From positions 33,583,045 through 33,647,044 of the forward strand of contig CM067372.1 of the NCBI GenBank assembly GCA_034401795.1: 64,000 bases of DNA. The letters run 5' to 3'. Numbering within the stretch: position 1 is the stretch's first letter; every line of letters starts with the position of its first letter. Made by a program: the position numbers and the translations under genes. Of the stretch, positions 35,765 through 64,000 are shown in pieces. Under the pieces are notes generated by a model. That model saw only the letters and a program-made list of their open reading frames with translations. It was not told the DNA's origin and searched no databases. The DNA is from Chaetoderma sp. LZ-2023a. Lineage: Eukaryota; Mollusca; Caudofoveata; Chaetodermatida; Chaetodermatidae.

Positions 35765-37413
35765 GTGCAAAAGTTAAGCACCACCCTATTTTTACGCACA
35801 TGCGAGGGTATATTCATGTGCTATGAAGAAAGCAATAGCATAAACATTTATGTACCCATCCATCTTAGTGCAAGAGGTAATAATGCAACTAGAGGAATGC
35901 TGATTATGATGGTGGGGAAACACTGTATGTTTTTGTTTGAACTTGAAAACGAGGCCTGAATATGGTTACGTTGACACAACTGACAACTATTGCCCTACAG
36001 TTGACACACGTGGCTAGATCGTCATTAATGGTGTCTGAAAACGAAGTTTAACATCTGTGCACGAGTTTGAGACTGTCATTATTAATACCGGGTATATCCA
36101 CCTTGTGCCTGGATGACGACCTGGACACGACGTCTCATGCTGGTCACCAACCGACTGATACGCCATTGTGGTATTCGTTGCCATTCAAGATGGAGTGCGT
36201 CTGTTAGTTCCTGTAGGTTCTGCACAGGAGGATCCCTCCTTCTCACCATGTTTCCCAGAATGTCCCAGATATGCTCAATAGGGTTCATGTCAGGGCTCCT
36301 TGCTGGCCATGGTAGGGTTTCGATGGCATTCTGGCGGAGGTATTCATGCACAGCTCTAGCACGATGTGGTCGGGCGTTGTCATCCATGAATATAGGGTGG
36401 GTTCCAGGTGCATGATTTACAAAATGAGGGACCACAACTCTATCCAGTATGGAATCTTGATATCTTTGTCCATTTAGTGTTCCAGGTACAGTCAACAGAT
36501 CCAGCTTACAATCAAATAAGATGCACCCCCATATCATAACGGAACCTCCACCAAATGGAACTTCTTCCGTGATGTTACGTTGGTCGTACGCCGTGCGTCT
36601 GGACCTCCATACACGAGTTCGACCATCTGTGGCATGAAGCAGGAACCGACTTTCATCGGACCAGTGTACCCGTCTCCAGGATCTCATGTTCCAGTGTCTT
36701 CTTTCGTTGCACCACCTCAGACGCTCCTCTTTGTGGTGTGCAGTGAGGAGAGGACGTCTGACAGGTCTCCTAGCTTTCATGCCAGCAGCATACAGTCTCC
36801 TTTTGATGGTAGACATTGACACTCTATTGCGCGTTTCCCATTGCTGGCTGAGCACTCTGCTGTTGGTGAATGGAGATCTCCTAACAAGGCGTACTAGGGC
36901 TCGATCATCACGGGCAGTAGTCTTCTTCGGTCTTCCAGATCTAGGCCTGTCCTTCACCTCGTTAGTTTGCCCATGTTTTGCAATCAAACGACTGATTACA
37001 GTATGGTTAATGTTCAGCTGTCTGCCAATCTCTCTGCATGACATACCAGTGGTATGCATGCCTATGATTTGCCATTTCACACGATCACTTAACCTTCGTC
37101 TTGCCATAGCGGTTCACAATCAAGAGCTAATTCTCTCTGTACAAATAAACCACGGTCATGAACACAAAATTCCTAATCTTGTCGCCTAAATCTGTATGTA
37201 ATGTTCTACACCTCAAACTGGACTTTTACATAACTGAACACGTGTGCTGTTTCCCGCCACGCACGGACATCAAGCGGCGTGAAGTCATGCATGCATGTGC
37301 ATTTCGTACTTGGAATTATGTCAGCTAACACGGGGACAAAAAGTATTGCAGCCTAGTTGTACCATCATGTTTCTACGTTCTATTGTTTTTGCTGGTGCTT
37401 AACTTTTGCACAG

Positions 37414-48425: not shown

Positions 48426-49527
48426 CAGGCTTGCACGATTTTTCGATTTAATCATGAAGTTCGATTTATTTTTTAAATCGCAATTTTTACGATGTAATTG
48501 AGGGAAAATCGTAAAATCGTAAAAAATTTCATGTTTTTTTAAAATCTTAAGTGTGTACTTTTCCGTCGCATTTTATCAGTACATGAGTACAATTATAATA
48601 GATTCACGCCTGTGTTCATTGTGTTTATATCCCGCCGTGCCGAATAATTACTAATCGCACTACAATATACAAGCTAACAATAGTGAGGTAACACCTTTGT
48701 CATTGAGAAAACCAGCTGGTTAGTCCGTCGAATCGCCATATAAATTTCTTTCTTTCGCTGCAGACCGTCGTGAAATGCCAAGTATATACTTAGTTGCGGA
48801 GTGTTAGGCAATCAGTGAACATAATTCCTTTTACTTCTAGAGTTAGCAATTTCAGGCGGTGTAATAATTTTTCCATTTTGATTCGGTTGTCATGTCAAAT
48901 TAAAGAAAATAAAGCAACAGCATTCCAGATTGTTGTATTTTGAACTGCGCGTTCTGTTGATTACTCTTAAATGTAAATCGTACATTCTGAAAGCAACTAT
49001 AAACTGCAGTATAGGACAAGTTTACGCTGTTACTATCGTAGCTACTCAAAGCTACCGTCCTATGTATATGAATTGCGCAGTATCTACCTGGGTACTAATA
49101 TTAGTGTCTTCGCGTTACTCCGGTAATGACCTAAACTCGTCCTACAAAGGGAGGCTATAAAGCGGAAGCTGATACATCATGTAATTTTTTTTTTTTTCTA
49201 GGCGACATTTTATCTCAAATTTTGATGAAATAAATAATGTTTATTAAACTATACGCACTATTTAGGCTGTCCCAATTAATAATTTCACTCCCGCGATGAT
49301 GGATATAAGGTATGCATTAAGCATAGAAGTAGGATGGTAAGAATTTGTCGCATGAAAATGTGTTCTAATTTTGTGCTATTTTTGTATCAATTATTTCAAC
49401 CTTTTCTAGAAACAAGTGACGTTACCCCGGTTTATACTTTTGGGAATTTGGACCTACGATTTATTCGAAAATCAAGATTTTTATAAAATCGATCGCGATG
49501 TTTCAAAACAAAAATCGTGCAAGCCTA
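48426..49527. mobile_element. 1.1-kb hAT-like non-autonomous element with exact 8-bp target duplication
   Basis: The left end CAGGCTTGCACGATTTTT is matched by an inverted right end differing only in the first base (TAGGCTTGCACG...). TTTGTACT stands directly outside both ends (48,418-48,425 and 49,528-49,535). An 8-bp duplication with CAG-type ends is the hAT signature. Subterminal AAATCG-type motifs repeat near both ends. There is no transposase frame, so movement would need a relative's enzyme. Confidence 0.85.
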
Positions 49528-49535
49528 TTTGTACT

Positions 49536-49585
49536 GCATATAGTTGTTCTGTATCATTCAGTTTTTGATGAAGTTTGAAAATCAC
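49536..49585 (+). pseudogene. Penelope-like RT fragment, left of the DIRS insertion
   Basis: In the frame ending CAC at 49,583-49,585 the codons read FLMKFENH, with a TAG further upstream. This fits the segment that precedes SIKFT in Penelope-like RTs. It joins in frame with 63,661 onward if the DIRS array is removed. Confidence 0.5.
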
Positions 49586-49599
49586 CATTCTCCTTCGAT

Positions 49600-49760
49600 C
49601 AATACTCACCATTCTGTTACTTCTGATATACAGCTGGCCTTGACAGCGGCTCTAGGATTATAGACTTAGAAAGCTTTACCGACTCCTGGGAACCGGGTAC
49701 TCGGCTCCCAACTGCCGAGTACCCGTTTACCATAGAGCTCATTCTTGTTTGCATAGCAAC
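49600..49760 (+). repeat. Left inverted terminal repeat of DIRS A
   Basis: From CAATACTCACCATTCTGTTAC through AGCTCATTCTTGTTTGCATAG it is the reverse complement of 56,508-56,665. It contains a hairpin, GGGTACTCGGC and GCCGAGTACCC around TCCCAACT. Confidence 0.9.
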
Positions 49761-50658
49761 AAGAGCAATACATGCTTTTTGCATTAAGGATTTTAGTGTT
49801 TTAAAATAATCTAAGTCTTTAATCAGTGATAGTTTGTGTGTTCTGAAAGGATAACTAAGGACTATGGAGAATACCGCCCAAGACAACCAGGTTGTATTGT
49901 TCTTTATTATCCATAGTTAAAAGACTTAGGTCTCTAAATTTCGTTGTGTCGCATGTTCCAATTTCTGACCCCATAGAATCTGGGACGTGTGCTAACAACG
50001 ATATATGCCAGACGATCGCCTTCTTTAAACCCCAACAGGCGATCGGCAGATATGAAAATAGGTGTTTGCTACGGTATTTCTAACACGAATATCGGCTGAC
50101 GTCGTTCTCCGTAGAATCCGAGCGGGTGACGTCACACCCGGTCGCTCGGATGTTTATGTGAAGAAAAATTTTTTCATTAATTCGCGCATCTTATTCTGGG
50201 TGCTGCGTACTAAAAATGGTACCGGAAACTTTAGAATGATCAAGTTTACGTGCGATCACGATCGGTTTGCAATGATCGGTGGTTTCAAAATTCTTGAGTA
50301 GATATGTGGTCTGCGGTTTTACCGTGTGAGACAGCAGTTGTTATACATTTTGTTGTTTTCTTCACATATCGTGCTGCGTTCGTTAGGAGTATAATTTATA
50401 TTGATTAGTAAATATACCCTGAATGCTATGCGATATGATTCCTGGAGCCGTTACACATCCTGTAGGATCTATTATGGGTGTGTTGTGCCCGCCGCGTACT
50501 TGTCGTCATAATCAATGCGATCGTTGTTGTAACGTGGCGGGGTGGGGTGCGGGGAGGTTACGGTTAATTTATGAGTCAAAATATTTGAAAATTAATTGTC
50601 TGCCTTCCATCCGTGTCTCGTTCCGCTTGTTTATTGTAGGTTTGTGCTTATTTTATAG
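49761..50658 (+). other. 5' region of DIRS A
   Basis: Conserved in copy B (about 56,870-57,759). No long frame belongs to the element here. A TGACGTCAC-type site lies in GGGTGACGTCACACCCGG near 50,125. The end, TTTGTGCTTATTTTATAG at 50,641-50,658, looks like a splice acceptor. Confidence 0.55.
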
Positions 50659-52791
50659 GCCAAGCCAGCCCCGCCATCATGTGACGACTGCCATAAGTTT
50701 GTCCGTGTAATGTTCAAGGACCATGTGTGTTTTAGGTGTGCCGTGTGTAATATAGATCATAGGTGTAATGTTTGTGCAGTGTGGTCCGTCGAAACGATGG
50801 TTAAGTTCCTTGCCCAGAAGGACTTGGCTGGGTCTGACGCGGGGTCAGGCGGTCCGAGAGGAAATCGTGGAACGCCCGGTTCGGCCGGTGGGGGTGCTCC
50901 ACGTCCCCAGCTGGAGGTGGCGGAGATGGCACCGCCGGCGTGGTTTGGTCCGGCTATGCAGGGTTTTCTGCATAGCGTTCTGCCCACGCTGGTGTCGTCC
51001 CTGCTACCAAAGGTTGGGGGGCAGTTTCTCCCCATGCCTGGTACGGATCCTGTCCTCGGACAGGATTCTGGACTGGTTACCGAGGGGGCCGTCTCGTACG
51101 GCCCCCTGGCGGTCCCGTCTGGCTTCGGCCAGACGGGTTCTGTCTCTCTGCGACCACCTCCGGGTGGTCCAGTAGCGGTGGCCGGTCCGTCAGGTGTGGG
51201 AGCCGTCCGCCAGGATGGCTCCACGGTTTATTCGTCTAGTGACGGCTCTTCGGAGTCTGAAGACGATGAGGCCGAGGAGGAGAGGTTGCTGCGGCCCGTG
51301 AAGCCGCAGGTGGAGAATATGGAGGTTGATTCCGTCCTGGACGGAACCGGCCTCCATTTGTCTGGTTTGGCGCAAGCCAGGTCAGCGGCTCCACCTGCGG
51401 CTGAGGCCAATCCGTTACCGTGCACCGGTTCCGCGCGGCTTGGTTTGTCACCAGCCGTCAGGGGAACGGGTGTGCCGGGCCAGGCATGGTACTCACCTAT
51501 CTCGCCTGGTCCGGCAGCCGGACATGGGGTGCCGTTGGCGCCCGTGTCCGGCTATGGTTCCGCGACGGTTACGGGTCCGTACGGTTTTCCGTGCGGACCT
51601 ACCCCATGGACCGGAGTGTTTCATGGGGTGGCGGCGGAACCGTGTGGTAGCGGAGTGCCTGGCGTGTCAGCCGTGGCTCCTTGCCGGGAGGCCATGGCTG
51701 GCAGACCCGTGAGCACGTCAACGGGTGACGTGTTTGCGGGGGTATCTTCTTCGGAGGTAGATTGGTCTGATGCTCTGGCGTGGCTAGCCAGAGTGGACCC
51801 GTCTGTGGTTTCGGCCACGGCCGATGAAGATGCGCCCCGTCCGTCGGTTGCGTCTATTAGGACGGGGATTTTGCCCGCGGCCCGGATCCAGTCAGTGGGA
51901 CTGGATCCACGGTTCATTGATTTGTTGGATGCTATTTATAGTAAACAACTAATGACCAAGGGTCAGCTCCCTGCGGCCTCCAGGGAGGTGCGGGCAAGAT
52001 GTCGTATTCCGCGGGGTGAATACGACAGGTATGGTGTAGTCCCGTCGGTCACGGAGGATGACCGATGGGTACTGGGCGTCCAGAGTGCCGGGTCGGGTGG
52101 TCCCGGTCCGGCACTAGTGGATAAGGCCCAGGTACACCAGGAAGAAGTCCTGGCCCTATGCGATGAGGGTGTGAGGGCAGCGATGAGCGCTGTCAATCAC
52201 TCCTATCGTCTACTTCAGTCGGTGTGGGCTGAAGCGGGGGCAGGCCACCCTGTGCCACCTGTGGCGCTATCGTGCGTTAATGACGGCTTGGTGCTGTCAA
52301 TGGACGCATTGGCAAGGGTGCAAGCGCGTGTGACGAAGTCCAGGAGGCAAATGGTCATTGACCATATGCGTCCGGCTACGGCAGTCAGGGAACGTCTTCT
52401 TGGGACGCCCCTGACAGGGCCTAGCATCTTTGGTGGCCAAGCGCGGGCCATCTTAGAGGACACCGCCAGTATTGCGCAGAATCGGTTAGCGGTAAATCTA
52501 CAGCTAGAGCTAGTGCGGCAAGCGCACGCACTAGGGGCTGTGGGCAAGCCGCTAACGGGACAGCCTTCAAAGAAACAGAAAAAGCATAAGAGCAAGGCGA
52601 AAGCCAGGCCTATTGCGACGTCTGTTTCGGCTGGGTTCTCGGAGCCGCCGCCGGCGAAGAAACCCAGGAAGGTTGTAGAGGCGCCTACCCTCCCCAATGT
52701 TGCTCCTGACCGCCCTAGAGGTGGGAAGGGCAAGGGGAAGGGTAAGGGTAAGGCCTCAAAGGGCGGACAGAAGGGGGCGAAGCGTACCTGA
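50659..52791 (+). CDS. DIRS A ORF1, gag-like protein
   Basis: The first ATG is at 50,710, giving 693 codons. The open frame and its similarity to copy B begin earlier, at 50,659, with CDDCHKF, CFRCAVC and CNVCAVW. These pairs could bind zinc. The middle is Gly/Pro/Val-rich and looks disordered. An acidic serine patch (SSDGSSESEDDEAEEE) is near 51,233. The region from ~51,890 (LDPRFIDLLDAIYSKQ) to 52,540 is helical and the best conserved. The end is strongly basic (KKQKKHKSKAK, GGKGKGKGKGK), suiting nucleic-acid binding. ORF1 of DIRS elements is usually this variable. The stop TGA at 52,789 sits in a small hairpin, and the frame stays open beyond it into ORF2. Confidence 0.8.
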   Translation, partial: AKPAPPSCDDCHKFVRVMFKDHVCFRCAVCNIDHRCNVCAVWSVETMVKFLAQKDLAGSDAGSGGPRGNRGTPGSAGGGAPRPQLEVAEMAPPAWFGPAMQGFLHSVLPTLVSSLLPKVGGQFLPMPGTDPVLGQDSGLVTEGAVSYGPLAVPSGFGQTGSVSLRPPPGGPVAVAGPSGVGAVRQDGSTVYSSSDGSSESEDDEAEEERLLRPVKPQVENMEVDSVLDGTGLHLSGLAQARSAAPPAAEANPLPCTGSARLGLSPAVRGTGVPGQAWYSPISPGPAAGHGVPLAPVSGYGSATVTGPYGFPCGPTPWTGVFHGVAAEPCGSGVPGVSAVAPCREAMAGRPVSTSTGDVFAGVSSSEVDWSDALAWLARVDPSVVSATADEDAPRPSVASIRTGILPAARIQSVGLDPRFIDLLDAIYSKQLMTKGQLPAASREVRARCRIPRGEYDRYGVVPSVTEDDRWVLGVQSAGSGGPGPALVDKAQVHQEEVLALCDEGVRAAMSAVNHSYRLLQSVWAEAGAGHPVPPVALSCVNDGLVLSMDALARVQARVTKSRRQMVIDHMRPATAVRERLLGTPLTGPSIFGGQARAILEDTASIAQNRLAVNLQLELVRQAHALGAVGKPLTGQPSKKQKKHKSKAKARPIATSVSAGFSEPPPAKKPRKVVEAPTLPNVAPDRPRGGKGKGKGKGKASKGGQKGAKRT

Positions 52792-52799
52792 GGGTACGC
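52782..52799 (+). promoter_or_regulatory. Hairpin holding the ORF1 stop codon (copy A)
   Basis: GCGTACC and GGTACGC form a 7-bp stem around the loop TGAG, which contains the stop codon. Copy B has the same structure with a compensatory outer pair. ORF2 is in the same frame downstream. Confidence 0.5.
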
Positions 52800-55011
52800 A
52801 AGCTCCCTTCATATCCGCCTGGACCACACCTGTGCGACAGGAACAGCGGTGCCAGTTATACCCGTCGTGCCTAGAACGAAATGGTTCTCACTCTCTCTCG
52901 TTAAGAAAGGGGGGGGGGGGGGGCGGACTGCGAGCCGGACAACCCCGTTAGACGTCGAGGCGTCTATGGTGGGTGGAAGGCTCATGCGTTTCGTCGAGGC
53001 TTGGCGAGGTGTGACGTCAGACAGTCTGGTCCTGGGATGGTTATCCCAGGGTTACATGCCGGAGTGGTGGGACTTTCCGCCACAAAATCTGTCTTTGGCA
53101 CCTGTCTGGACACCCGTACCAAGGGAGCCAGACAAGTTAGAAGCCGTTCAAAAGGAAGTGTCGGGTTTGCTTCTGAAGGGAGCAATAAAACCAGCAAACC
53201 GGAACACTCCAGGCTTCTATTCAAACATGTTCCTTGTCCCCAAGAGCACGGGGGGATGGAGACCCATACTCAATCTCAGGCCATTAAATTGGTTTATCCA
53301 TACGCCTCGGTTCCAGATGGAAACGCCGAGGTCGGTAATGGCGGGATTGAGGAAAGGAATGTGGTGTGTATCGATCGATCTGAAAGATGCATATTTCCAC
53401 ATTCCGATGAATCGGAGTTGTCACAGGTTTCTGAGATTTGCGTTTCAGAATCAAGTATGGGAGTTTACAATTCTCCCGTTTGGCCTGTCGACAGCTCCGA
53501 GGGTTTTCACGAGAGTGGTCCTTGCGGTGACAGCGTTTCTCAGAAAAGAGAACGTGGCGCTACACACCTACATAGACGACTGGCTGCTTAAGGCAGACTC
53601 GGCAGCCAGGTTGAACGTGGATACTGCTCTGACTCTGAAGTTACTTTCAGATCTAGGCTGGATAGTCAACGAGGAGAAATCCGAGTTGACGCCCACTCAA
53701 CATTTCGTTTATTTGGGGATGCGATTCGACCTCGAGGAGGGCAGGGTTTACCCATCAGAGCCCAGAGTGGTGTCTCTGTTAGCCATCCTCAGGAGTTTTC
53801 GAGTGGGAAACCACATTCAGGCGAGGCGGTTCCTTCAGATGCTGGGCATGATGGTCTCCATGGAGCAGGTTATCCCGTACGCTGCTCTAATGCGAAGACC
53901 TATCCAGTTGTATCTGATGTCTCTGTGGAAACAGAGAACAGAACCCCTGTCAAAACTGGTGCCAGTTTTGGAGCCGATAATATCGCATCTTCTATGGTGG
54001 AAACAGCGTCAGAATCTCCTAATAGGGGTTTCGCTGCACCTACCCCACCCCCAGCTGTCCGTTTACACGGATGCATCGCTGGAAGGGTGGGGTGCCTGCC
54101 TGGGAGAACACCAGGTCTCGGGCACATGGACTCTCCCGGAGAGTCAGCTGCATATCAATCTGTTGGAAATGATGGCAGTGGAACTGGCGTTGGAAGAGTT
54201 CCTTCCGATGATCAGGGGCAAGGTGATATTGATACGGTCGGACAATTCGACAGTAGTATCATATATAAATCGCCAAGGAGGGACCAGGTCGCCCACCCTG
54301 TGCATCAGGGTGTGGCACTTGATTCAATGGTGCAGGAATTACTCGGTTGTTTTGAAAGCAGCTCATATTCCTGGCCGATTGAACATTCTGGCGGATGCTT
54401 TGTCTCGCAGACAGAGAATCTTGCCAACAGAATGGTCCCTCAACCCTCCAGTTCTACGACGGATCTTCGAGCATTGGGGCAAACCCAACGTGGACTTGTT
54501 CGCCACAAAGGAAAATGCTCAAATCATGACATATGTCTCGCCGATTCCAGATCCAAATGCCGTCGATACAGACGCTCTGGCGATAAGCTGGAGAGGGATG
54601 CACGCGTACGCGTACCCACCCACCATTCTTCTTCCGAAGGTATTGGTGAAGGTCAGGGAGGAGCCGTGTCTGGTCCTGCTAATAGCGCCGTATTGGCCGA
54701 GCAGGGCGTGGTTCACGGATCTTCTGGATCTGCTGGTGGAAAATCCTGTGCAGTTGCCCGAGATTCCGAACATAATCTCCCAGGCCAAGGGACGCTTCCT
54801 ACACGAGCGTCCCGAAATGTTCAAATTGACTGCGTGGATATTGTCAAACAACGTTCCACGTCGGAAGGCTTTTCTCAACAGGCTGCTGATTTCAGCGCGG
54901 CTGCGAGAAGGAGGTCAACCTTCAAGTCATATAACAACAAGGTTAACAGATTTGCAGACTGGTGTGAAGAAAAGGGTATTGATACCTTTCAATCCACTAT
55001 TCAGCAAATAG
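52792..55011 (+). CDS. DIRS A ORF2, reverse transcriptase / RNase H with C-terminal domain
   Basis: No ATG starts the frame near the ORF1 stop. A GTG occurs at 52,849 and the first ATG only near 52,966. From 52,849 it is 720 codons. RT: IDLKDAYFHIP at 176-186 and the catalytic YIDDW at 241-245, the form seen in DIRS RTs. RNase H: D408 (YTDAS), E440 (INLLE), D465 (RSDNS), D516 (ADALSR). The C-terminal part has VDLFAT at 548-553 and IAPYWPS at 612-618. In DIRS1-group elements this region is often described as a Dam-like methyltransferase domain. I see the position and the DLFAT motif but cannot confirm activity. A 15-base G-run (52,909-52,923) lies near the start. Ends at TAG 55,009, overlapping ORF3. 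Confidence 0.9.
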   Translation, partial: GYASSLHIRLDHTCATGTAVPVIPVVPRTKWFSLSLVKKGGGGGRTASRTTPLDVEASMVGGRLMRFVEAWRGVTSDSLVLGWLSQGYMPEWWDFPPQNLSLAPVWTPVPREPDKLEAVQKEVSGLLLKGAIKPANRNTPGFYSNMFLVPKSTGGWRPILNLRPLNWFIHTPRFQMETPRSVMAGLRKGMWCVSIDLKDAYFHIPMNRSCHRFLRFAFQNQVWEFTILPFGLSTAPRVFTRVVLAVTAFLRKENVALHTYIDDWLLKADSAARLNVDTALTLKLLSDLGWIVNEEKSELTPTQHFVYLGMRFDLEEGRVYPSEPRVVSLLAILRSFRVGNHIQARRFLQMLGMMVSMEQVIPYAALMRRPIQLYLMSLWKQRTEPLSKLVPVLEPIISHLLWWKQRQNLLIGVSLHLPHPQLSVYTDASLEGWGACLGEHQVSGTWTLPESQLHINLLEMMAVELALEEFLPMIRGKVILIRSDNSTVVSYINRQGGTRSPTLCIRVWHLIQWCRNYSVVLKAAHIPGRLNILADALSRRQRILPTEWSLNPPVLRRIFEHWGKPNVDLFATKENAQIMTYVSPIPDPNAVDTDALAISWRGMHAYAYPPTILLPKVLVKVREEPCLVLLIAPYWPSRAWFTDLLDLLVENPVQLPEIPNIISQAKGRFLHERPEMFKLTAWILSNNVPRRKAFLNRLLISARLREGGQPSSHITTRLTDLQTGVKKRVLIPFNPLFSK

Positions 55012-55853
55012 CAGACTTTCTCTGTGAGCTGTTCTTTACAGGACTAGCTCCCGTCACAATTGCTGGATACAAGTCAGCTTTGGCATCAGTTATCCCTTGT
55101 CTAGCCAACAGGGATAGTCCAGAGGTGGCCCAGTTAAACGTGATGTTGAAGGGAATGAGCAATCTCCGCCCGAGACAACCGGTAGTCATTCCAGCCTGGA
55201 GTCTATCTTTAGTGCTTAATGTACTGGCCAAGCACCCATTCGAACCGTTGCGTTCGGCTAGTCTAAAGCATTTGACTCTAAAGGCGGTCTTTCTATTGGC
55301 AGCTTCCTCAGCTAGAAGGCGCAGTGAGATCCATGCGCTTTCGGCAGAGAGGAACCGATTTATCGTTTCTGGAGAAGGTCTGCGTCTTCTGCCAAGAGCA
55401 GAATTTATGTCAAAGAGCCAATCTTTGAGATATCCCGGCAAACCGATCATTATACCGAAGTTAACCAGGTTTGATCGTGATGCCAGTGTCTGGTGCCCGG
55501 TCCGTGCTTTGACTAAGTACAAGAAACGGACTGACTCATTACGGTCGAACGATAGACATCTGTGGATCTGCCATAAAAAGCCTTATGGCGCCGCATCCAT
55601 GGATACTATCTCTCATTGGGTGGTCGAATGCATTCAGACTACTCATGAGATGGCGACTGGGCACCAGGTGCAGGGCGTAAGGGCACACGATGTTAGAGGA
55701 ATAGCCGCCTCGACCGCCCTTTATAATGGTGTTCCGTTAGAGGACATCATGGCCGTTGCACAATGGCACTGTGAGTCCTCATTTACGGATTACTATATGA
55801 GGGATGTGTCAGACTCAGCCAATCCACTCGCTTTAGCTGTTTTGAAACGATAG
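53925..55853 (+). CDS. DIRS A ORF3, tyrosine recombinase (real start uncertain)
   Basis: The frame is open from 53,925 and overlaps ORF2 by ~1.1 kb in another phase. Recognisable recombinase begins near 54,890 with STFKSYNNKVNRFADWCEE, the N-terminal SAM-like DNA-binding part. In the frame numbering the catalytic residues fit R464/465 (SSARRRSEIHAL), H588 and R591 (RAHDVRG), H615 (QWHCESS) and Y623 or Y624 (TDYYMRD). This enzyme joins a circular DNA copy to the target by strand exchange, leaving no target duplication. The frame has no stops. The region before 54,890 is Ser/Gly-rich and may be a by-product of ORF2 codon use. Confidence 0.85.
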   Translation: METENRTPVKTGASFGADNIASSMVETASESPNRGFAAPTPPPAVRLHGCIAGRVGCLPGRTPGLGHMDSPGESAAYQSVGNDGSGTGVGRVPSDDQGQGDIDTVGQFDSSIIYKSPRRDQVAHPVHQGVALDSMVQELLGCFESSSYSWPIEHSGGCFVSQTENLANRMVPQPSSSTTDLRALGQTQRGLVRHKGKCSNHDICLADSRSKCRRYRRSGDKLERDARVRVPTHHSSSEGIGEGQGGAVSGPANSAVLAEQGVVHGSSGSAGGKSCAVARDSEHNLPGQGTLPTRASRNVQIDCVDIVKQRSTSEGFSQQAADFSAAARRRSTFKSYNNKVNRFADWCEEKGIDTFQSTIQQIADFLCELFFTGLAPVTIAGYKSALASVIPCLANRDSPEVAQLNVMLKGMSNLRPRQPVVIPAWSLSLVLNVLAKHPFEPLRSASLKHLTLKAVFLLAASSARRRSEIHALSAERNRFIVSGEGLRLLPRAEFMSKSQSLRYPGKPIIIPKLTRFDRDASVWCPVRALTKYKKRTDSLRSNDRHLWICHKKPYGAASMDTISHWVVECIQTTHEMATGHQVQGVRAHDVRGIAASTALYNGVPLEDIMAVAQWHCESSFTDYYMRDVSDSANPLALAVLKR

Positions 55854-56353
55854 TTAGTGACCACACTGCTTTTCCCCTTTTTTCACTTTGGTAAGAAAAG
55901 AACCTAAAGCAGGCATGGTCAAGCGAGAGGATGTCAACCAGATTGTGTCACTGATGGCCGAACCGGTGAATGGTTGTAGGCGGTACGTCTGAAGTCCTGT
56001 TATCATAAGGTAATTCAACAAGTGAGAGTTTTTTGTATGATGTATATGTATCATGTTCATTCATCTTATATATTCATGCTCATTCCCAGGCTAATACAAG
56101 CGATATGCAGGGAGTAGTTAACCCTCTTGGCATATTGGTGTTTCAGGCGAGATACATGTTCGTTAGTTCTCTCCCTTTTCTTAGGAGGAAAAAAGGGGGG
56201 GGGGCTGTGACGCGAATGTGATTCGGTTCCGTGAACTTGACGGTCCTTTTAGGTCTCCGTTAGTCAAGTTTGAAGTCTAAAATCTTTCTCCAAGGGGCAA
56301 AATTAGCATGTATGGCTTGCCCCTTCCCACCAGGTTACTGATCAAATCTGGTG
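55854..56353 (+). other. 3' region of DIRS A
   Basis: Non-coding and conserved in copy B. It carries an A/G-rich run, AGGAGGAAAAAAGGGGGGGG, near 56,181-56,206 that is also present in B at 63,138-63,158. Confidence 0.6.
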
Positions 56354-56454
56354 TATATCAGAAGTAACAGAATGGTGAGTATTGATCGAAGGAGAATGCA
56401 GGAAATGTCAATTTCCCTTTCTCCGAGATCTAACAATACTCACCATTCTGTTAC
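56354..56454 (+). repeat. Internal complementary region of DIRS A
   Basis: The first half (TATATCAGAAGTAAC ... GGAGAATG) is the complement of the element's left end. The second half (CAGGAAATGTC ... TTCTGTTAC) is the complement of its right end. Together they spell the complement of a circle junction, CCTG-CATTC-TCC. In DIRS elements this region templates completion of the ends. Confidence 0.85.
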
Positions 56455-56507
56455 GGACCCAGCCTCCCAGCCCCACGGAGGCAAGCCATAGTTTTCTCTT
56501 GTTTGGT

Positions 56508-56665
56508 GGCTATGCAAACAATATGAGCTCTATGGTAAACGGGTACTCGGCAGTTGGGAGCCGAGTACCCGGTTCCCAGGAGTCGGTAAAGCTTTCTAAG
56601 TCTATAATCCTAGAGCCGCTGTCAAGGCCAGCTGTATATCAGAAGTAACAGAATGGTGAGTATTG
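56508..56665 (+). repeat. Right inverted terminal repeat of DIRS A
   Basis: Inverse of the left repeat. It shares A-specific bases such as CTATAATCC (left: GGATTATAG). A non-matching outer extension of about 35 bp (to 56,700) completes the right end. Confidence 0.9.
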
Positions 56666-56715
56666 TTAGATCTCGGAGAAAGGGAAATTGACATTTCCTG
56701 CATTCTTCTTCGATC

Positions 56716-56870
56716 AATACTCACCATTCTGTTACTTCTGATATACAGCTGGCTCTAGGACTATAGACTTAGAAAGCTTTACCGACTCCTTGGAACCGGG
56801 TACTCGGCTCCCAACTGCCGAGTACCCGTCTACCATAGAGCTCATTCTTGTTTACATAGCAACAAGAGCT
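56716..56870 (+). repeat. Left inverted terminal repeat of DIRS B
   Basis: Begins CAATACTCACCATTCTGTTAC. It carries B-specific bases (GGACTATAG, CCTTGGAACC, GAGTACCCGTC) that are matched in B's own right repeat. Confidence 0.85.
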
Positions 56871-57759
56871 ATACATGCTTTTCGCAGTGGAGAGATTAAG
56901 AAATAAATCTAAGTCTTTTTGTCTGTGATTGTGATAGCTAGTGATTCTCTTGCAAGGATAATTGGATAATATGGATACCGCCGATGATAACCAGGTCGTA
57001 TATTTCCTTATTATTCCATAGTTAAAAGACTTAGGTCTCTAAATTTCGTTGTGTCGCATGTTCCAATTTCTAACCCCAAAGAATCTGGGACGTGTGTTAA
57101 CAATGAGATATGCCGGATGGGCGCCTTCTTTAAACCCCAACAGGCGATCGGCAGATATGAAAATAGGTGTTTGCTACGGTATTTGTAACACGATTATCGG
57201 CTGACGTCGTTCTCTGTAAGATCCGAGCGGGTGACGTCACACCCGGTGTGCTCGGATGTTTATGTGAAGAACATTTTTTTTTCATGAATTCGCGCATCTT
57301 GTTCTGGATACTGCGTCCTAAAAATGGTACCAGAAAACTTTGGAATGTTCAAGTTTTGCGTGTTATCACGATCTGTTTGGAATGATCGGTGGTTTCAAAA
57401 TTCTTGATTAGATGTGTGGTCTGCGGTTTTACCGTGTGCTACAGCAGTTTGTTTACATTTTGTTGTTTCTTCACATATCGTTTTGGCTTTCGTTAGGAGT
57501 ATAATTTATATTGATTGGTAAATATACCCCGAATGCTAGGCGATATGATTCCTGGTTCCGTTATACATCCTGGAGGATCAATTATGGGTGTATTTATGCC
57601 CGCTTCGTTCTTAATCAATGCGATCTTTGCTGTAACGTTGCGGGGTGGGGTGCGGGAGGGTTACAGTTAATTTATGGTCAATATATTTGAAAATTAATTG
57701 TCTGCCTTCCATCCGTGTCTCGTTCCGCTTGCTTATTGTAGGTTTGTGCTTATTTATAG
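56871..57759 (+). other. 5' region of DIRS B
   Basis: Parallel to 49,761-50,658 in A, with small indels and the same splice-acceptor-like TTTGTGCTTATTTATAG just before the gag frame. Confidence 0.55.
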
Positions 57760-59772
57760 GCCAAGCCAGCCCCGCCATCATGTGACGAGTGCCACACGTT
57801 CGTACGGGTCCTATTTAAGGACCATGTCTGCTTTAGATGTACCTCATGTAACCTTGATAGTAGGTGTAATGTGTGTGCCGTGTGCTCCGCGGATATGATG
57901 TTGAAGTTCCTTGCCCAGAAGGATGTGGCTGGGTCTGACGCGGGGTCAGGCGGTTCGAAGTTAAATCGTGGAGCATCCGGTTCGGCCCTTGGGGCGCTCC
58001 ACGTCGTCAGCTGGAGGTGGCGGAGATGGCACCGCCGGCGTGGTTCGGTCCGGCTATGCAGGGTTTTCTGCATAGCGTTCTGCCCACGCTGGTGTCGTCC
58101 CTGCTGCCGAAAGTTGTTGGGCAGTTTCTCTCCCCATGCGGGTTCTGTCTCTCTGCGGCCACCTCCGGGTGGTCCAGTAGCGGTGGCCAGTCCGTCAGGC
58201 ATGGGAGCCGTCCGCCAGGACGGCTCCACGGTTTCGTCGTCTAGTGATGACTCTTCGGGGTCTGAAGATGAGGAGGCCAAGGAGGAGAGGTTGCTGCGGC
58301 CTGTGATGCCACGGGTGGAGAATATGGAGGCCGATTCCGTCCTGGACGGAACCGTCCTCCATCTTTCTGGCTTGGCGCAAGCCAGGGCAGAGGCTCCGCC
58401 TGTGGTTGAGGCCAATCTGGTACCGGGCACCGGTCCCGTGATGGTTGGTTTAATGCCAACCGACACAGTGACGGGTGTGCCGGGCCAGGCGTGGTACTCG
58501 CCTGGTCCGGCGGTCAGATGTGGGGTGCCATTGGCGCCTGTCTCTGGCCACGGTTCCGTGTCTGTTACGGGTCTGCACGGTTTTCCGTGCGGGCCTACTC
58601 CATGGACTGGTGTGTTCCATGGGGTGGCGGCGGAACCGTATGGTACCGGAGTTCCTGGCGTGTCAGCCGCGGCTCCTAGCCGGGAGGCCGTGGCTGGTAG
58701 GTCCGTGAACGCGTCACCAGGTGACGTGTTCACGGGTGTGTCCTCGGAAATAGACTGGTCTGAGGCTCTGGCTTGGCTAGCCAGGGTAGACCCGTCTGTG
58801 GTTTCGGCCACGGCCGAGGAGGATGCGCCCCGTCCATCGGTTGTATCGATTAGGACGGGGATCTTGCCTGCAGCCCGGATCCAGTCCATTGGACTGGATC
58901 CACGGTTTATTGAGTTGCTTGAGGCTATTTATAGTAAGCAACTCATGACCAAGGGCCAGCTCCCTGCGGCCTCCAGGGGGGTGCAGGTGAGGTGTCGTAT
59001 TGCACAGGGGGAATACGACAGGTATAGTGTGGTACCATCGGTTACCGAGGATGACCGATGGGTTCTGGGTGTCCAGAGTGCTGGAGCGGGTTGTTCCGGT
59101 CCGGCACTAGTGGACAAATCCCAGGGACACCACGAGGAAGTCCTGTCCCTATGTGATGAGGGTGTGAGGGCAGCTATGAGTGCTGTCAACCATTCTTATC
59201 GCCTTCTTCAGTCGGTGTGGGCTGAAGCGGGGGCAGGCCACCCTGTGCCACCTGTGGCGCTTTCGTGCGTCAATGACGGCCTGGTGCTGTCTATGGACGC
59301 ACTGGCAAGGGTGCAGGCGCGTGTTACTAAGTCCAGGAGGCAAATGGTTCTTGACCATATGCGTCCGGCTACGGCCGTCAGGGAGCGTCTTCTTGAGACG
59401 CCCCTGACAGGTCCTAGCATCTTCGGTGGCCAGGCGCGGGCCATCTTAGAGGACACGGCTAGCATTGCGCAGAATCGGTTGGTGGTGAACTTACAGCTAG
59501 AGCTGGTGCAGCAAGCGCACGCACTAGGGGCTGTAGGCAAGCCGCTGACTGTACAACCTTCCAAGAAGCAGAAGAAGCATAAAGGCAAGGCGAAAGCTAA
59601 GCCTAGTGCGGCTGCTGCTTCATCTGGCTTTTCTCAGCCGCCGCCGGCGAAGAAAGCCAGGAAGGTTGTGGAGGCCCCTACCCTCCCCAATGTTGCTCCT
59701 GATCGCCCTAGAGGCGGGAAGGGGAAGGGTAAGTCCTCAAAGGGCGGAAAGAAGGGAGCGGATCGTACCTGA
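57760..59772 (+). CDS. DIRS B ORF1, gag-like protein with a replaced N-terminal segment
   Basis: The frame is open throughout, with the Cys module at its start (CDECHTF, CFRCTSC, CNVCAVC). There is no ATG at the position of A's first ATG (Leu here). After GSALGALHV the reading phase differs from A for ~45 codons because of an indel. It returns at AGSVSLRPPPG after a deletion of roughly 80-100 bp. From there to the basic end (KKQKKHKGKAK, GGKGKGKSSKGG) it matches A closely. The protein may thus be made but with an altered segment. The stop TGA at 59,770 lies in the conserved hairpin. Confidence 0.7.
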   Translation, partial: AKPAPPSCDECHTFVRVLFKDHVCFRCTSCNLDSRCNVCAVCSADMMLKFLAQKDVAGSDAGSGGSKLNRGASGSALGALHVVSWRWRRWHRRRGSVRLCRVFCIAFCPRWCRPCCRKLLGSFSPHAGSVSLRPPPGGPVAVASPSGMGAVRQDGSTVSSSSDDSSGSEDEEAKEERLLRPVMPRVENMEADSVLDGTVLHLSGLAQARAEAPPVVEANLVPGTGPVMVGLMPTDTVTGVPGQAWYSPGPAVRCGVPLAPVSGHGSVSVTGLHGFPCGPTPWTGVFHGVAAEPYGTGVPGVSAAAPSREAVAGRSVNASPGDVFTGVSSEIDWSEALAWLARVDPSVVSATAEEDAPRPSVVSIRTGILPAARIQSIGLDPRFIELLEAIYSKQLMTKGQLPAASRGVQVRCRIAQGEYDRYSVVPSVTEDDRWVLGVQSAGAGCSGPALVDKSQGHHEEVLSLCDEGVRAAMSAVNHSYRLLQSVWAEAGAGHPVPPVALSCVNDGLVLSMDALARVQARVTKSRRQMVLDHMRPATAVRERLLETPLTGPSIFGGQARAILEDTASIAQNRLVVNLQLELVQQAHALGAVGKPLTVQPSKKQKKHKGKAKAKPSAAAASSGFSQPPPAKKARKVVEAPTLPNVAPDRPRGGKGKGKSSKGGKKGADRT

Positions 59773-59780
59773 GGGTACGA
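59763..59780 (+). promoter_or_regulatory. Hairpin holding the ORF1 stop codon (copy B)
   Basis: TCGTACC and GGTACGA form a 7-bp stem around TGAG. The outer pair is T-A, where copy A has G-C. Confidence 0.5.
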
Positions 59781-61963
59781 GAGCTCCCTTTGTATCCGCC
59801 TGGAGCGCACCTGTGTGACAGGAACAGCGGTTCCAGTTAGACCAGCCGAGCCAAGACCGAAATGGTTCTCTCTCTCTTGTTAAGAGAGGGTGTGGGGGAG
59901 CGGACCGCGAGCCGGACAACCCTGTTAGGCGTCAAGGCGTCTATAGTGGGTGGAATGCTCATGCGTTTCGTCGAGGCTTGGCGAGGTGTGACGTCAGACA
60001 GTCTGGTCCTGGGATGGTTATCCCAGGGATACATGCTGGAGTGGTGGGACTTTCCGCCACAGAATCTGTCTTTGGCACCTGTCTGGACACCCGTACCAAG
60101 GGAACCAGACAAGTTAGAAGCCATTCAAAACGAAGTGTCAGGTTTGCTTCTGAAGGGAGCCATAAAACCAGCAAACCAGAACACTCCAGGCTTCTATTCA
60201 AATATGTTCCTTGTTCCCAAGAGCACAGGGGGATGGAGACCCGTACTCAGTCTCAGGCCATTAAATTGGTTTATCCATACGCCTCGGTTCCAGATGGAAA
60301 CGTCGAGGTCGGTAATGGCAGGATAGAGGAAGGGAATGTGGTGTGTGTCGATCGATCTGAAAGATGCATATTTCCACATTCCAATGAACAGGAGTTGTCA
60401 CAGGTTTCTGAGATTTGCGTTTCAGAATCAAGTATGGGAGTTTATTGTCCTCCCGTTTGGCCTGTCGACAGCTCCAAGGGTTTTCACAAGAGTGGTCCTT
60501 GCGGTGACAGCGTTTCTCAGAAAAGAGAACGTGGCGCTACACACCTACATAGACGATTGGCTGATCAAAGGTTAGAGGTGGATACTGCTCTGACTCTGAA
60601 GTTACTTTCAGATCTAGGCTGGATAGTCAACAAGGAGAAATCCGAGTTGACACCCACTCAACATTTCGTTTATTTAGGGATGCGATTCGATCTCGAGGAG
60701 GGCAGGGTTTACCCGTCAGCCCAGAGTGGTGTCTCTGTTGGCCATCCTCAAGAGTTTTCGAGTGGGAAACCACATTCAGGCGAGTAGGTTTCTTCAGATG
60801 CTGGGCATGATGGTCTCCATGGAGCAGGTAATCCTGTACGCTGCTCTAATGCGAAGACCTATCCAGTTGTATCTGATGTCTCTGTGGAAACAGAGAACAG
60901 AACCCCTGTCAAAACTGGTGCCAGTTTTGGAGCCAATAATGTCGCATCTTGTATGGTGGAAAAAGCGTCCGAATTTCCTAGTAGGGGTTTTGCTGCACCT
61001 ACCCCACCCCAGCTGTCCGTGTACACGGATGCATCGCTGGAGGGGTGGGGGCCCTGCCTGGGAGAACACCAGGTCTCGGGCACATGGACTCTCCAGGAGA
61101 GCCAGCTGCATATCAATCTGTTGGAAATGATGGCAGTGGAACTGGCGTTGGAACAGTTTCTTCCAATGGTCAGGGGCAAGGTGATATTGATACGGTCGGA
61201 CAATTCGACGATAGTATCATACATAAATCGCCAAGGCGGGACCAGGTCACCCACACTGTGTATCAAAGTGTGGCACTTGATTCAATGGTGCAGGAATTAC
61301 TCAGTTGTTTTGAAAGCAGCTCACATTCCTGGGCGATTGAACATTCTGGCCGATGCTTTGTCTCGCAGACAGAGTATTCTGCCAACAGAATGGTCCCTCA
61401 ACTCTCCAGTTCTATGAAGGATCTTCGAGCATTGGGGCAAACCCAACGTGGACTTGTTCGCCACAAGGGAAAATGCTCAAATCATGACTTATGTCTCGCC
61501 GATTCCAGATCCAAATGCCGTCGATACAGACGCTCTGGCGATAAGCTGGAGGGGGATGCACGCTTATGCGTACCCACCCACCATTCTTCTGCCTAAGGTA
61601 TTGGTGAAGATCAGGGAGGAACCGTGTCTGGTCCTGCTAATAGCGCTGTATTGGCCCAGCAGGGCGTGGTTCACGGATCTTCTAGATCTGCTGGTGGAAA
61701 ACCCGGTGCAGTTACCCGAGATTCCGAACATAATCTCCCAGGCCAAGGGACGCTTCCTACACGAGTGTCCCGAAATGTTCAAATTGACTGCGTGGATGTT
61801 ATCAAACAACGTTCCACGTCGGAAGGCTTTTCTCGACAAGCTGCTAATTTCATCGCGGCTGCTAGGTCAACCTTCAAGTCATATAACAACAAGGTTAACA
61901 GATTTGCAGACTGATGTGAAGAAAAGGGTATTGATACCTTTCAATCCACTATTCCGCAAATAG
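59773..61963 (+). pseudogene. DIRS B ORF2, broken RT / RNase H
   Basis: Aligned by eye with A, it has a frameshift before LREGVGERTAS. A stop TAG at 60,324 replaces a Leu codon. A ~14-bp deletion follows YIDDWLI near 60,565. A 2-bp deletion lies near 60,718. A shift occurs near 61,005, before LSVYTDAS. A TGA at 61,415 replaces an Arg codon. The motifs IDLKDAYFHIP, YIDDW, YTDAS, RSDNS and DLFAT survive in separate pieces. It cannot make a full enzyme. Confidence 0.85.
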
Positions 61964-62805
61964 CAGACTTTCTCTGTGAGCTGTTCTTATCAGGACTAGC
62001 TCCCGTCACAATTGCTGGATACAAGTCAGCTTTGGCATCAGTTATCCCTTGTCTAGCCAACAGGGATAGTCCAGAGGTGGCCCAGTTAAATGTGATGGTG
62101 AAGGGAATGAGCAATCTCCGACCGAGACAACCGGTAGTCATTCAAGCCTGGAGTCTATCTTTAGTGCTTAATGTACTGGCCAAGCACCCTTTCGAACCGT
62201 TGCGTTCGGCTAGTCTAAAGCATTTGACTCTAAAGGCGGTCTTTCTATTGGCAGCTTCCTCAGCTAGAAGGCCCAGTGAGGTCCATGCGCTTTCAGCAGA
62301 GAGAGACCGATTTATTGTCTCCGGAGAGGGTCTGCGTCTTCTGCCAAGAGCAGAGTTTATGTCAAAGAATCAATCTTTGAGATATCCCGGCAAACCGATC
62401 ATTATACCGAAACTAACAAGGTTTGATCGTGATGCCAGTGTCTGGTGCCCGGTCCGTGCTTTGACTAAGTACAGGAAACGGACAGACTCGTTACGGTCGA
62501 ACGATAGACATCTATGGATCTGCCATAAGAAGCCTTATGGCGCCGCATCCATGGATACTATCTCTCATTGGGTTGTCGAATGCATTCAGACTACTCATGA
62601 GATGGCGACTGGGCACCAGGTGCAATGCGCAAGGGCACACAATGTTAGAGGAATAGCCGCCTCGACCGCCCTTTACAGTGGTGTTCCGTTAGAGGACATC
62701 ATGGCCATTGCACAATGGCACTGTGAGTCCTCATTTACGGATTACTATATGAGGGATGTGTCAGACTCGGCCAAACCACTCGCTTTAGCTGTTTTGAAAC
62801 GATAG
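61045..62805 (+). pseudogene. DIRS B ORF3, tyrosine recombinase with nonsense mutation
   Basis: Same phase relation to ORF2 as in A. A stop at 61,594-61,596 lies in the overlapping leader. TGA at 61,912-61,914 replaces the Trp codon that follows VNRFAD in A. Downstream the frame is open from there to 62,805, including 62,032-62,805 with an internal ATG. It retains SSARRPSEVHAL, RAHNVRG, QWHCESS and TDYYMRD. The D in HDVR is N here, but the H and R are kept. A fragment lacking the N-terminal domain would probably not work. Confidence 0.85.
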
Positions 62806-63312
62806 TTAAGCGACCACACTGCTCTTCTCCCTTTTTTGACTTTGGTAAGAAAGAATTTAGAAGCAGACATGGTCGAGCGAGAGGATGACAACCAGATTGT
62901 GTCACTGATGGCCGGACAAGTGAATGGTTGGAGGCGGTACGTCTGGAATCCATTTATCATGAGGTAATTCAAGATTGAGAGTTTTTTGTATTATGTCTAT
63001 ATATCATGTTCATTCATCTTATATATTCATGCTCATTCCCAGGCTAATACTTATTTATATGCAAAGAGCAGTTAACCCTCTTGGCATATTTGTGTTTTCA
63101 GGCGAGATACATGTTCGTGAGTTCTCTCCCTTTTCTTAGGAGAAAAAGGGGGGGGGGGCAATGATGCGAATGTGATTCGGTTCCGTTAACTTGACGGTCC
63201 CTTTTTTAGGTCTCCTTTAGTCAAGTTTTTTTAAGTCCAGCTCTTTCTCCAAGGGGCAAAAGTAGCAGTTATGGCTTGCCCCTTCCCACCAGGTTACTGA
63301 CCAAATCTGGTG
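62806..63312 (+). other. 3' region of DIRS B
   Basis: Non-coding; parallels 55,854-56,353 in A, with the purine run at 63,138-63,158. Confidence 0.6.
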
Positions 63313-63413
63313 TATATCAGAAGTAACAGAATGGTGAGTATTGATCGAAGGAGAATGAAGGAAATTTCAATTTCCCTTTCTCCGAGATCTAACAATACTC
63401 ACCATTCTGTTAC
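63313..63413 (+). repeat. Internal complementary region of DIRS B
   Basis: Complementary to B's ends. Its centre reads GGAGAATGAAGG, predicting the circle junction CCTT-CATTC-TCC, with B's own CCTT instead of A's CCTG. Confidence 0.85.
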
Positions 63414-63464
63414 GGACCCAGCCTCCCAGCCCCACGGAGGCAAGCCATGGATTTCTCTTGTTTG

Positions 63465-63625
63465 GTGGCTATGCAAACAATATGAGCTCTATGGTAGACG
63501 GGTACTCGGCAGTTGGGAGCCGAGTACCTGGTTCCAAGGAGTCGGTAAAGCTTTCTACGTCTATAGTCCTAGAGCCAGCTGTCAGGGCCAGCTGTATATC
63601 AGAAGTAACAGAATGGTAAGTATTG
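63465..63625 (+). repeat. Right inverted terminal repeat of DIRS B
   Basis: Inverse of B's left repeat with matching private bases (CTATAGTCC, GGTTCCAAGG). The outer extension runs to 63,660. Confidence 0.85.
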
Positions 63626-63660
63626 TTGGATCTCGGAGAAAGGGAAATTTAAATTTCCTT

Positions 63661-64000
63661 CATTCCTCCATTAAATTCACGGTCCGGCACTCCCCAAACC
63701 AGATCTCATTCCTTGACACCACCATCACCAAAAAGGCTCATGAACCCTTGAGCTTTAACCTCTTTACTAAACCAACTGATATAGATGGCTACCTCCACTA
63801 CAAATCAGCCTATACCAAGGCTTGCAAGAACGCAAGCCCCATAAGCGAAATGCTCAGATTGCTTATAATCTGCTCAACAAAAACAGATTACCTTCTCCAC
63901 AGCAATCAACTCATAGAGCACTATGCAGCCTGTGGCTACCCAGCCACACTGCTAAACAATATGCAAAACACTGCCGCCAACAAAAATAAGAACTCTCCTA
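63661..64000 (+). pseudogene. Penelope-like element RT, C-terminal part, right of the DIRS array
   Basis: Open to the window end in the frame starting CAT at 63,661: SSIKFTVRHSPNQISFLDT, then FNLFTKPTDIDGYLHYKSAY, CKNASPISEMLRLLIICS and HYAACGYPATLL. FLDT, KPTD-x-x-YLHY and the CK-x-x-P segment are hallmarks of Penelope-like RT thumb regions. A GIY-YIG endonuclease would lie beyond the window if present. The upstream part is cut off by the DIRS insertion. Confidence 0.75.

Follow-up and report, generated by a model that had tools for sequence, protein, structure and literature searches.

An end-to-end pair of DIRS1-like retrotransposons in Chaetoderma sp. LZ-2023a: a circle-type junction between two different outer targets

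DIRS1-like retrotransposons carry inverted terminal repeats (ITRs), two overlapping internal complementary regions (ICRs), a right extension and genes for a reverse transcriptase (RT) with RNaseH and for a tyrosine recombinase (YR); according to the cited sections of Piednoel et al. (2011, PMC3266345), their termini are NTT/ATT, complementary to a 3-bp circular junction, and no target-site duplication is formed. DIRS-1 of Dictyostelium preferentially inserts into DIRS-1 (PMC5633606, PMC5006619), and the same self-insertion is stated for Danio in a source which adds that the proposed mechanisms of DIRS insertion 'remain to be experimentally demonstrated' (PMC5941688). Here, we analyse two such elements, A and B, which lie end to end in a stretch of 64,000 nucleotides (the window) from the mollusc Chaetoderma sp. 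LZ-2023a (GCA_034401795.1, contig CM067372.1, positions 33,583,045 to 33,647,044 of the forward strand; C14 in our numbering of the 2753 contigs of the 2.44 Gb assembly). A previous sequence-only reading of the window had proposed that circular DIRS DNA recombined at the motif CATTC in the end of a resident copy. Our data show that A and B are ordinary DIRS elements connected by a known kind of junction, and that the A/B locus is not a clean record of integration.

The family to which A and B belong resembles the published DIRS1-like elements in its ITRs, ICRs, right extension, RT-RNaseH, YR and lack of target-site duplication. Unlike those described in the cited sections of PMC3266345, it also uses AAT targets, namely a self-target in the YR gene (P) and a repeat (Q), and its junctions at P keep different alleles in a fixed orientation. 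With Dictyostelium DIRS-1 it shares self-insertion and the clustering that results from it; insertion of DIRS-1 is described as 'without apparent sequence preference' (PMC5633606), whereas the present family has two base-exact self-targets, the core of end-to-end joins and the site in the YR gene. The TATE elements of trypanosomatids are likewise YR retroelements arranged in tandem, but they belong to another YR group and reside in telomeric repeats (PMC6681497, as far as cited here). The features that define the pair are as follows.

49587-56701, + strand: DIRS1-like element A, starting with ATTCTCC and ending with CCTGC; limits set by the polarity result given below
49595-49742, + strand: left ITR of A, 148 nt, 99% complementary to 56523-56670
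56352-56454, + strand: ICR of A, reverse complement of the circle junction
56455-56701, + strand: right terminal repeat and right extension of A, from terminal-repeat and ICR comparison
56701-56705, + strand: CATTC of the A/B junction; C is the last base of A, ATTC the first bases of B
56702-63661, + strand: DIRS1-like element B, older, with broken open reading frames (ORFs), from alignment to A
63311-63413, + strand: ICR of B, from ICR comparison

The left outer junction at 49586 reads GAAAATCAC-CATTC-TCCTTCG, the A/B junction at 56701 reads CATTTCCTG-CATTC-TTCTTCG and the right outer junction at 63661 reads AATTTCCTT-CATTC-CTCCATT, all three as quoted in the sequence-only reading. Reverse complementation of the ICRs returned the circle junctions it had predicted, CCTG-CATTC-TCC for A and CCTT-CATTC-TCC for B, and its view of the A/B boundary as a circle-type junction was borne out: the ICR of A and the A/B junction agree at 102 of 103 bases, the single mismatch being TTC for TCC at the start of B. 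The type of the junction would fit a circular double-stranded intermediate. The ICR of A matches the element's own ends at 61/61 and 47/47 positions, that of B at 58/61 and 46/47; the ITRs of B measure 101 nt (98%). An ITR 21-mer (up to three mismatches) occurs eight times in the window versus none in 100 shuffles. The TTC variant is not peculiar to B: a 19-mer spanning it has nine occurrences in the genome; the other eight, all of which were fetched, are reversed ICRs and are thereby ruled out as further tandem pairs.

At three marker sites, the left ITR of A is identical to its right ITR, and the same holds for B. This bears on the possibility that the tandem arose when a circular copy recombined homologously with a resident one inside the element body, a route suggested, in YR-mediated form, for insertion of DIRS-1 into existing copies (PMC5006619, in the section cited). 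Such recombination would pair the left ITR of A with the right ITR of B, which is not the arrangement observed, and the junctions at P all fall on one exact base. We therefore consider this origin quite improbable.

The two elements also differ in their coding capacity. In A, the following frames are open:

50710-52791, + strand: gag-like ORF, 693 amino acids
52849-55011, + strand: RT-RNaseH ORF, perhaps including a methyltransferase, 720 amino acids
54840-55853, + strand: YR coding part, in a frame open from 53925

A Pfam search with 52942-55008 returned RVT_1 (4e-22) and RT_RNaseH (2.3e-05; 24.9 bits at a cut-off of 24.8), with a weak Dam match (E 0.029, under the curated cut-off) for a DAM-like methyltransferase; the gag-like ORF had no Pfam match up to E 1. 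For YR, Phage_int_SAM_1 was found (1e-4; 23 bits at a cut-off of 22.3), corresponding to the N-terminal domain, and no catalytic-domain family was matched in this search; we take an R, an HxxR and a Y, picked out by eye, to be the catalytic residues. In B, the pol part contains several stops and a change of frame, the YR part contains a single stop, and 95 bases are missing from gag relative to A. Both elements are 91.3% identical (6335 of 6937 aligned positions), with 86-90% in 500-base bins before about 53,086 and 93-95% beyond. The two DIRS1-like retrotransposons differ in subfamily and in age; mainly the broken frames of B, in addition to the differences between its ICR and ends, make A the younger element. 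The G+C content of A (49586-56700) is 52%, versus 38% in the window before it.

Divergence, differing ITR markers and the contrast between open and broken frames are in agreement with the sequence-only reading, which had judged a recent tandem duplication unlikely. Equal-unit arrays with units of 1.54 kb, about 5.5 kb and 2,993 bp do exist in the family, and in five of 56 fetched junctions compared, the meeting ITRs show no substitution, so that some pairs could be products of duplication or of a dimeric intermediate. For A and B, in view of the differences listed, an origin as two copies of one event is hardly credible.

End-to-end junctions recur throughout the family. Searches of the genome, whose counts may be lower bounds, yielded 3258+3437 = 6695 right ends (69-base pattern) and 3293+3508 = 6801 left ends (52-base pattern), and a combined 79-base right-plus-left pattern matched 56+51 = 107 places, each with up to three mismatches and with no hit for the reversed control pattern. 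The right-end type of A is present exactly at 669+712 = 1381 places, the other type, which served as search pattern, at 33. From 100 listed of the 107 matches, 60 were fetched, a hand-chosen, non-random set with zero to two mismatches and none with three. A scripted call assigned 55 of them to true right ends and two to reversed ICRs, leaving three undecided; by eye, L078 and L124 have true ends, while L073 belongs with the reversed ICRs. Hence, 57 of the 60 are genuine end-to-end joins; in a few cases, the copies joined have internal deletions. The remaining three (L073, L122 and L123), for which insertion into an ICR was considered and rejected, look by eye like internal duplications of an ICR/right-ITR segment that mimic such joins, and at least four of the 100 listed matches, all with three mismatches, end like an ICR.

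Among 35 true-end junctions scorable at all markers, marker types differ across the junction in 19 and agree in 16; substitutions between meeting ITRs can also arise within one element. When both subfamilies meet, an A-type element lies to the left of a B-type element in eight cases (five by all three markers, three by some) and in the reverse order in one (p 0.04). Since several listed junctions are 3.4-9.8 kb apart on one contig, runs of three or more elements are likely. If ATTCT were hit at the rate seen among unique right flanks, 33 of 57 when family targets are counted, chance would place about 3.6 insertions at the 6,801 resident left ends, and 0.3 if any ATT were used. Resident ends are thus favoured over average sites, and a short likeness to the circle junction may suffice as the cause. 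Two further arrangements were observed. At L095 and L096 (C4:11283403 and C4:11287184), end-to-end joins 3.8 kb apart have the core GTT instead of ATT, and upstream of L095 a piece of RT leads directly into the right end. At C1:51362018-51376983, six exact left ends recur every 2,993 bp on one strand, forming a tandem array of a short unit with a DIRS left end; the 22 bases compared on either side of its first element are those that flank C1:20783143.

To describe the targets, we used samples from exact-match lists of ends, with left ends and pairs all from contig C1; ATT was consequently fixed by the search, mismatched cores other than those of P and Q are under-represented, and related DIRS families remain among the 'non-family' flanks. 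C follows ATT at 23 of 30 exact right ends and precedes it at 16 of 30 exact left ends, three of which are tandems. In unique flanks outside the A/B family, C is found at -1 and at -2 in 18/38 each, C at +1 in 41/50 and T at +2 in 35/50, with weaker biases at -6 to -8, +7 and +8. Thirty elements with both ends, reduced by one duplicate and by seven with a flank in the A/B family, provided 22 clean paired targets: eight have C-ATT-C, ten ATT-C only, one C-ATT only and three neither. For comparison, CATTC accounts for 60/1329 and 70/1647 of the ATT sites on the two strands of the window before the elements. CATTC is therefore preferred at family targets but not required; an obligatory 5-bp motif is ruled out by its presence in just 8/22, and its occurrence at both outer junctions is common without being necessary. 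The shared core is ATT/AAT rather than CATTC. Two observations concern single targets. At L061 (C1:39386100), a left end sits in a DIRS right ITR where A reads TTTCTA-AGT-CTAT, that is, the homologue of the target has no ATT. L056 and L057 (C1:33938596 and C1:34027866) are opposite-facing DIRS left ends that share a flank, located in the RT gene of a related DIRS element, and may represent a duplicated locus or another self-target.

One target, P, lies within the family itself:

55140-55167, + strand: self-target P in the YR gene of A, ...GGGAATGAGC^AAT-CTCC, recognized from junctions of insertions elsewhere in the genome
62113-62115, + strand: equivalent of P in B by sequence position, GAGC-AAT-CTCC, core AAT

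Four left ends (pairs 16, 26 and 29, and L065) have a common flank, which is the YR gene cut at GGGAATGAGC. Genome-wide, this left junction is matched at 50+54 = 104 places, and its counterpart on the right, CCTGC-AAT-CTCCGCCCGAG, at 79+93 = 172. Intact P reads GAGC-AAT-CTCC in both A and B and shares eight of nine bases with the circle junction GC-ATT-CTCC. Among the 100 listed junctions of each kind, 25 left/right pairs on one strand are 6.6-8.7 kb apart, as would be expected of whole elements nested at one base of a resident YR gene; two of these pairs, on the small contigs C1070 and C1819, are equally spaced and may be one locus. Alternatively, recombination at P might resolve circles into circles of 5.57 kb and 1.54 kb. 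The 75 of 100 listed left and 75 of 100 listed right junctions that are unpaired would be compatible with this, as would pairs 16 and 26, whose left junction is at P and whose right flank lies outside DIRS. However, the pairing of the other 25 argues against it, and it is less simple than nested insertion followed by unequal crossing over. The latter is also suggested by runs in which the spacing is 1.54 kb, the distance from P to the right end, or about 5.5 kb, that from the left end to P, seen at C17:59577852-59582524, C2:22683133-22689350, C4:21988460-21999489 and C13:86239433-86250564.

Flanks are continuous around a single core, without target-site duplication, at insertions in P as well as at one (p11) in an inverted DIRS copy. 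A tandem pair on C16 resides inside P, with GAGC-ATT on the left, CCTGC-ATT-CTCC in the middle and CCTGC-AAT-CTCCGACC on the right, 14.1 kb apart, and the halves of its target site are contiguous in other copies. Hence, an end-to-end pair can form at one target.

Because the element core is ATT and the core of P is AAT, the junctions at P reveal which allele is kept on either side. All 100 listed of the 104 left junctions carry the ATT of the element (38 exact, 43 with one mismatch and 19 with two); the opposite allele costs one extra mismatch and would be listed at one or two. All 100 listed of the 172 right junctions carry the AAT of the target. For A-like residents, the opposite allele would fall into the one-mismatch class, which is listed completely and from which it is absent; for B-like residents, it would be among the two-mismatch matches, of which only seven are listed, 72 matches in all being unlisted. 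A symmetric outcome has p 3e-8 for the 25 pairs, chosen from the listed junctions, if these are independent. In addition, there are just seven exact left ends with T at +1, versus T at this position in 7/50 targets; had every second event retained the target allele on the left, roughly 110 should accompany the exact left ends, which total about 1,590 when the 100 found in the first 153.7 Mb of C1 are extrapolated. None of the 67 listed one-mismatch right ends differs at -1, as judged by eye. These observations thus confine the exchange to the interval from -1 to the second triplet base. Published elements point in the same direction: in Table 3 of PMC3266345, start and end triplets differ in 10/28 elements, and in 7/7 informative ones, i.e. 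those combining a right extension with a 3-bp junction (AcDIRS1, AcDIRS2, AmDIRS2, BmDIRS1, NveDIRS6b, TnDIRS1a and XtDIRS2), the start equals the circle and the end is different (p 0.008, one-sided). AcasDIRS1, which has a left extension only, is the mirror image, while BfDIRS2 and AmDIRS1 are uninformative.

With the exchange located by other copies at the left border of ATT, C comes from the target and ATTC from the element at the left outer junction of the window pair, and C from the element and ATTC from the target at the right one. The outer CATTCs are then mixtures of target and element, and the earlier statement that the target also held CATTC is not supported. Simple readings of the polarity are an overlap of zero to two bases, or inheritance of one strand only. 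Tentatively, DIRS integration could be strand-polar: just one recombinant strand would be passed on, the exchange would always take place at the left border of the NTT triplet, and the recombinase would act on a folded single-stranded cDNA junction rather than on a double-stranded circle with a 3-bp overlap. We regard this as possible rather than probable, and an overlap of zero to two bases would account for the polarity data equally. The junction strand folds into a long hairpin in which the core TTCTCC is paired (z -9.5 to -9.9), which is no proof since any ITR junction would fold. A linear single-stranded cDNA is reportedly announced for DIRS in the title of one paper. Integron integrases belong to the tyrosine recombinase class. 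Insertion of integron cassettes is an asymmetric reaction on one folded strand (PMC8876359, section cited), though in bacteria, and the likeness is one of logic only. In the DIRS literature covered, which does not include Cappello 1984 and Malicki 2020, we found no earlier account of allele polarity or of the self-target P, no search having been aimed at allele polarity as such.

The outer flanks of the A/B pair tell a different story from those of the C16 pair:

48557-49528, + strand: part of repeat R, ending just left of the Q piece, from genome matches
49540-49586, + strand: left flank, a piece of repeat Q, which continues beyond this point in L221 and L222
63662-64000, + strand: right flank, C-terminal part of an RT that we take to be Penelope-like, from the ATT of B's right junction past the window end, from homologues

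Over its final 41-45 bases, the left flank of A matches L221 (90%) and L222 (89%), in which Q is uninterrupted and reads GGAAAATCACC-AATCAACCCCC and GAAAATCATC-AATCAACCCCC, respectively. As both loci align with each other on either side of A's insertion point, A was inserted in Q, most likely at an AAT core. Repeat R has 41 matches including itself, with 40 of 2005 candidates scored. The Penelope-like RT has 150 scored matches in the genome, itself included, while Pfam returned no match for the flank peptide and a PDB search with it gave nothing useful. Twenty fetched relatives (L194 among them being the same locus as L192) have CAT or CAC at the junction codon and CATCCC in 14 cases. A's left flank has no likeness to these 20 homologues (its score was equalled or exceeded by 165 of 200 shuffles), and in-frame interruption of a single Penelope-like gene by the pair is rejected on this ground. 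Thus, the window pair, as judged from these alignments, has two different outer targets.

Consequently, deletion, flank exchange or misassembly has to be added to any model of a single integration, and the pair cannot be taken as the record of one integration at a resident's end, given that its two flanks, Q and the Penelope-like RT, belong to unrelated repeats. For the family as a whole, such junctions recur, and the C16 pair lies in one target. Integration of a circular A molecule into the core of the left end of B, in one target and with no later event, would agree with the circle-type junction, with recurrent tandems such as the C16 pair with its contiguous outer flanks, and with the predominance of A-type to the left of B-type elements. 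Nevertheless, with two unrelated repeats outside and only short matches (26-65 bases) to the continuation of Q in the window, at L190 and within 6 kb past the window, we consider this improbable. Somewhat less improbable, yet still unlikely, is a misassembly in which two separate loci, one with A in Q and the other with B in the Penelope-like element, were connected by way of other tandem pairs or ICRs. A false join would produce outer flanks that are not contiguous, the junction 19-mer is also present in the eight reversed ICRs, and the family has thousands of ends. Conversely, the two elements meet precisely at the biological core; if A were elsewhere, an A-type right end should lead into Q at some other locus, but a search with up to three mismatches found this at 0 places; and 57 of the 60 fetched junctions are end to end, albeit in the same assembly.

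As a whole, the data are probably best explained by a YR-type A/B junction and a second step that removed intervening DNA. A would first have inserted in Q and B in the Penelope-like element. Strand exchange by a tyrosine recombinase at the left border of the ATT triplet would have connected an A-type right end (...CCTGC) with a B-type left end (ATTCT...); within the family, the usual setting of such an exchange would be the entry of new element DNA at C-ATT-CT-like sites, including resident ends and the pseudo-site in the YR gene. The second step would have taken out the DNA between A and B, either because two resident ends fused directly and the middle was deleted, or because a pre-existing tandem swapped a flank by ectopic recombination. 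YR as the catalyst and this order of events are what we infer from the junctions. Several points weigh against this explanation. The locus and every junction are known from the assembly sequence alone. The reciprocal junction, which would lead from an A-type right end into the continuation of Q, is absent from the genome in the search with up to three mismatches mentioned above, which fits a deletion but does not show it. B's right junction reads ATT, whereas after C the Penelope-like homologues have ATC in 15/20 and ATT in none, so that under the polarity rule the target must have been changed, or else this junction is possibly a counter-example. The age asymmetry between ICRs and ends, 0/108 differences in A and 4/108 in B, is weak and not significant by itself (Fisher 0.12). 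Finally, the chance estimate for insertions at resident left ends rises to about 82 with ATTCTCC, a value resting on a background count of only 1.

Other parts of the window contain an open frame of 341 amino acids at 36082-37107 on the - strand, presumably a Tc1/mariner-like transposase, and a frame of 337 amino acids at 4-1017 on the + strand, which we take to be retroelement integrase-like, perhaps BEL/Pao. Scans of viral contigs gave nothing beyond one weak match of 21 residues.

Taken together, some 6,700-6,800 ends and dozens of insertions at one mismatched self-target amount to a natural experiment, which narrows the exchange point to one or two bases and reports the inherited strand outcome. 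The resemblance of the ends and the YR gene of resident copies to the circle junction offers a sequence-level reason for the clustering of DIRS elements. Polarity and self-target are the parts of most specialist value.

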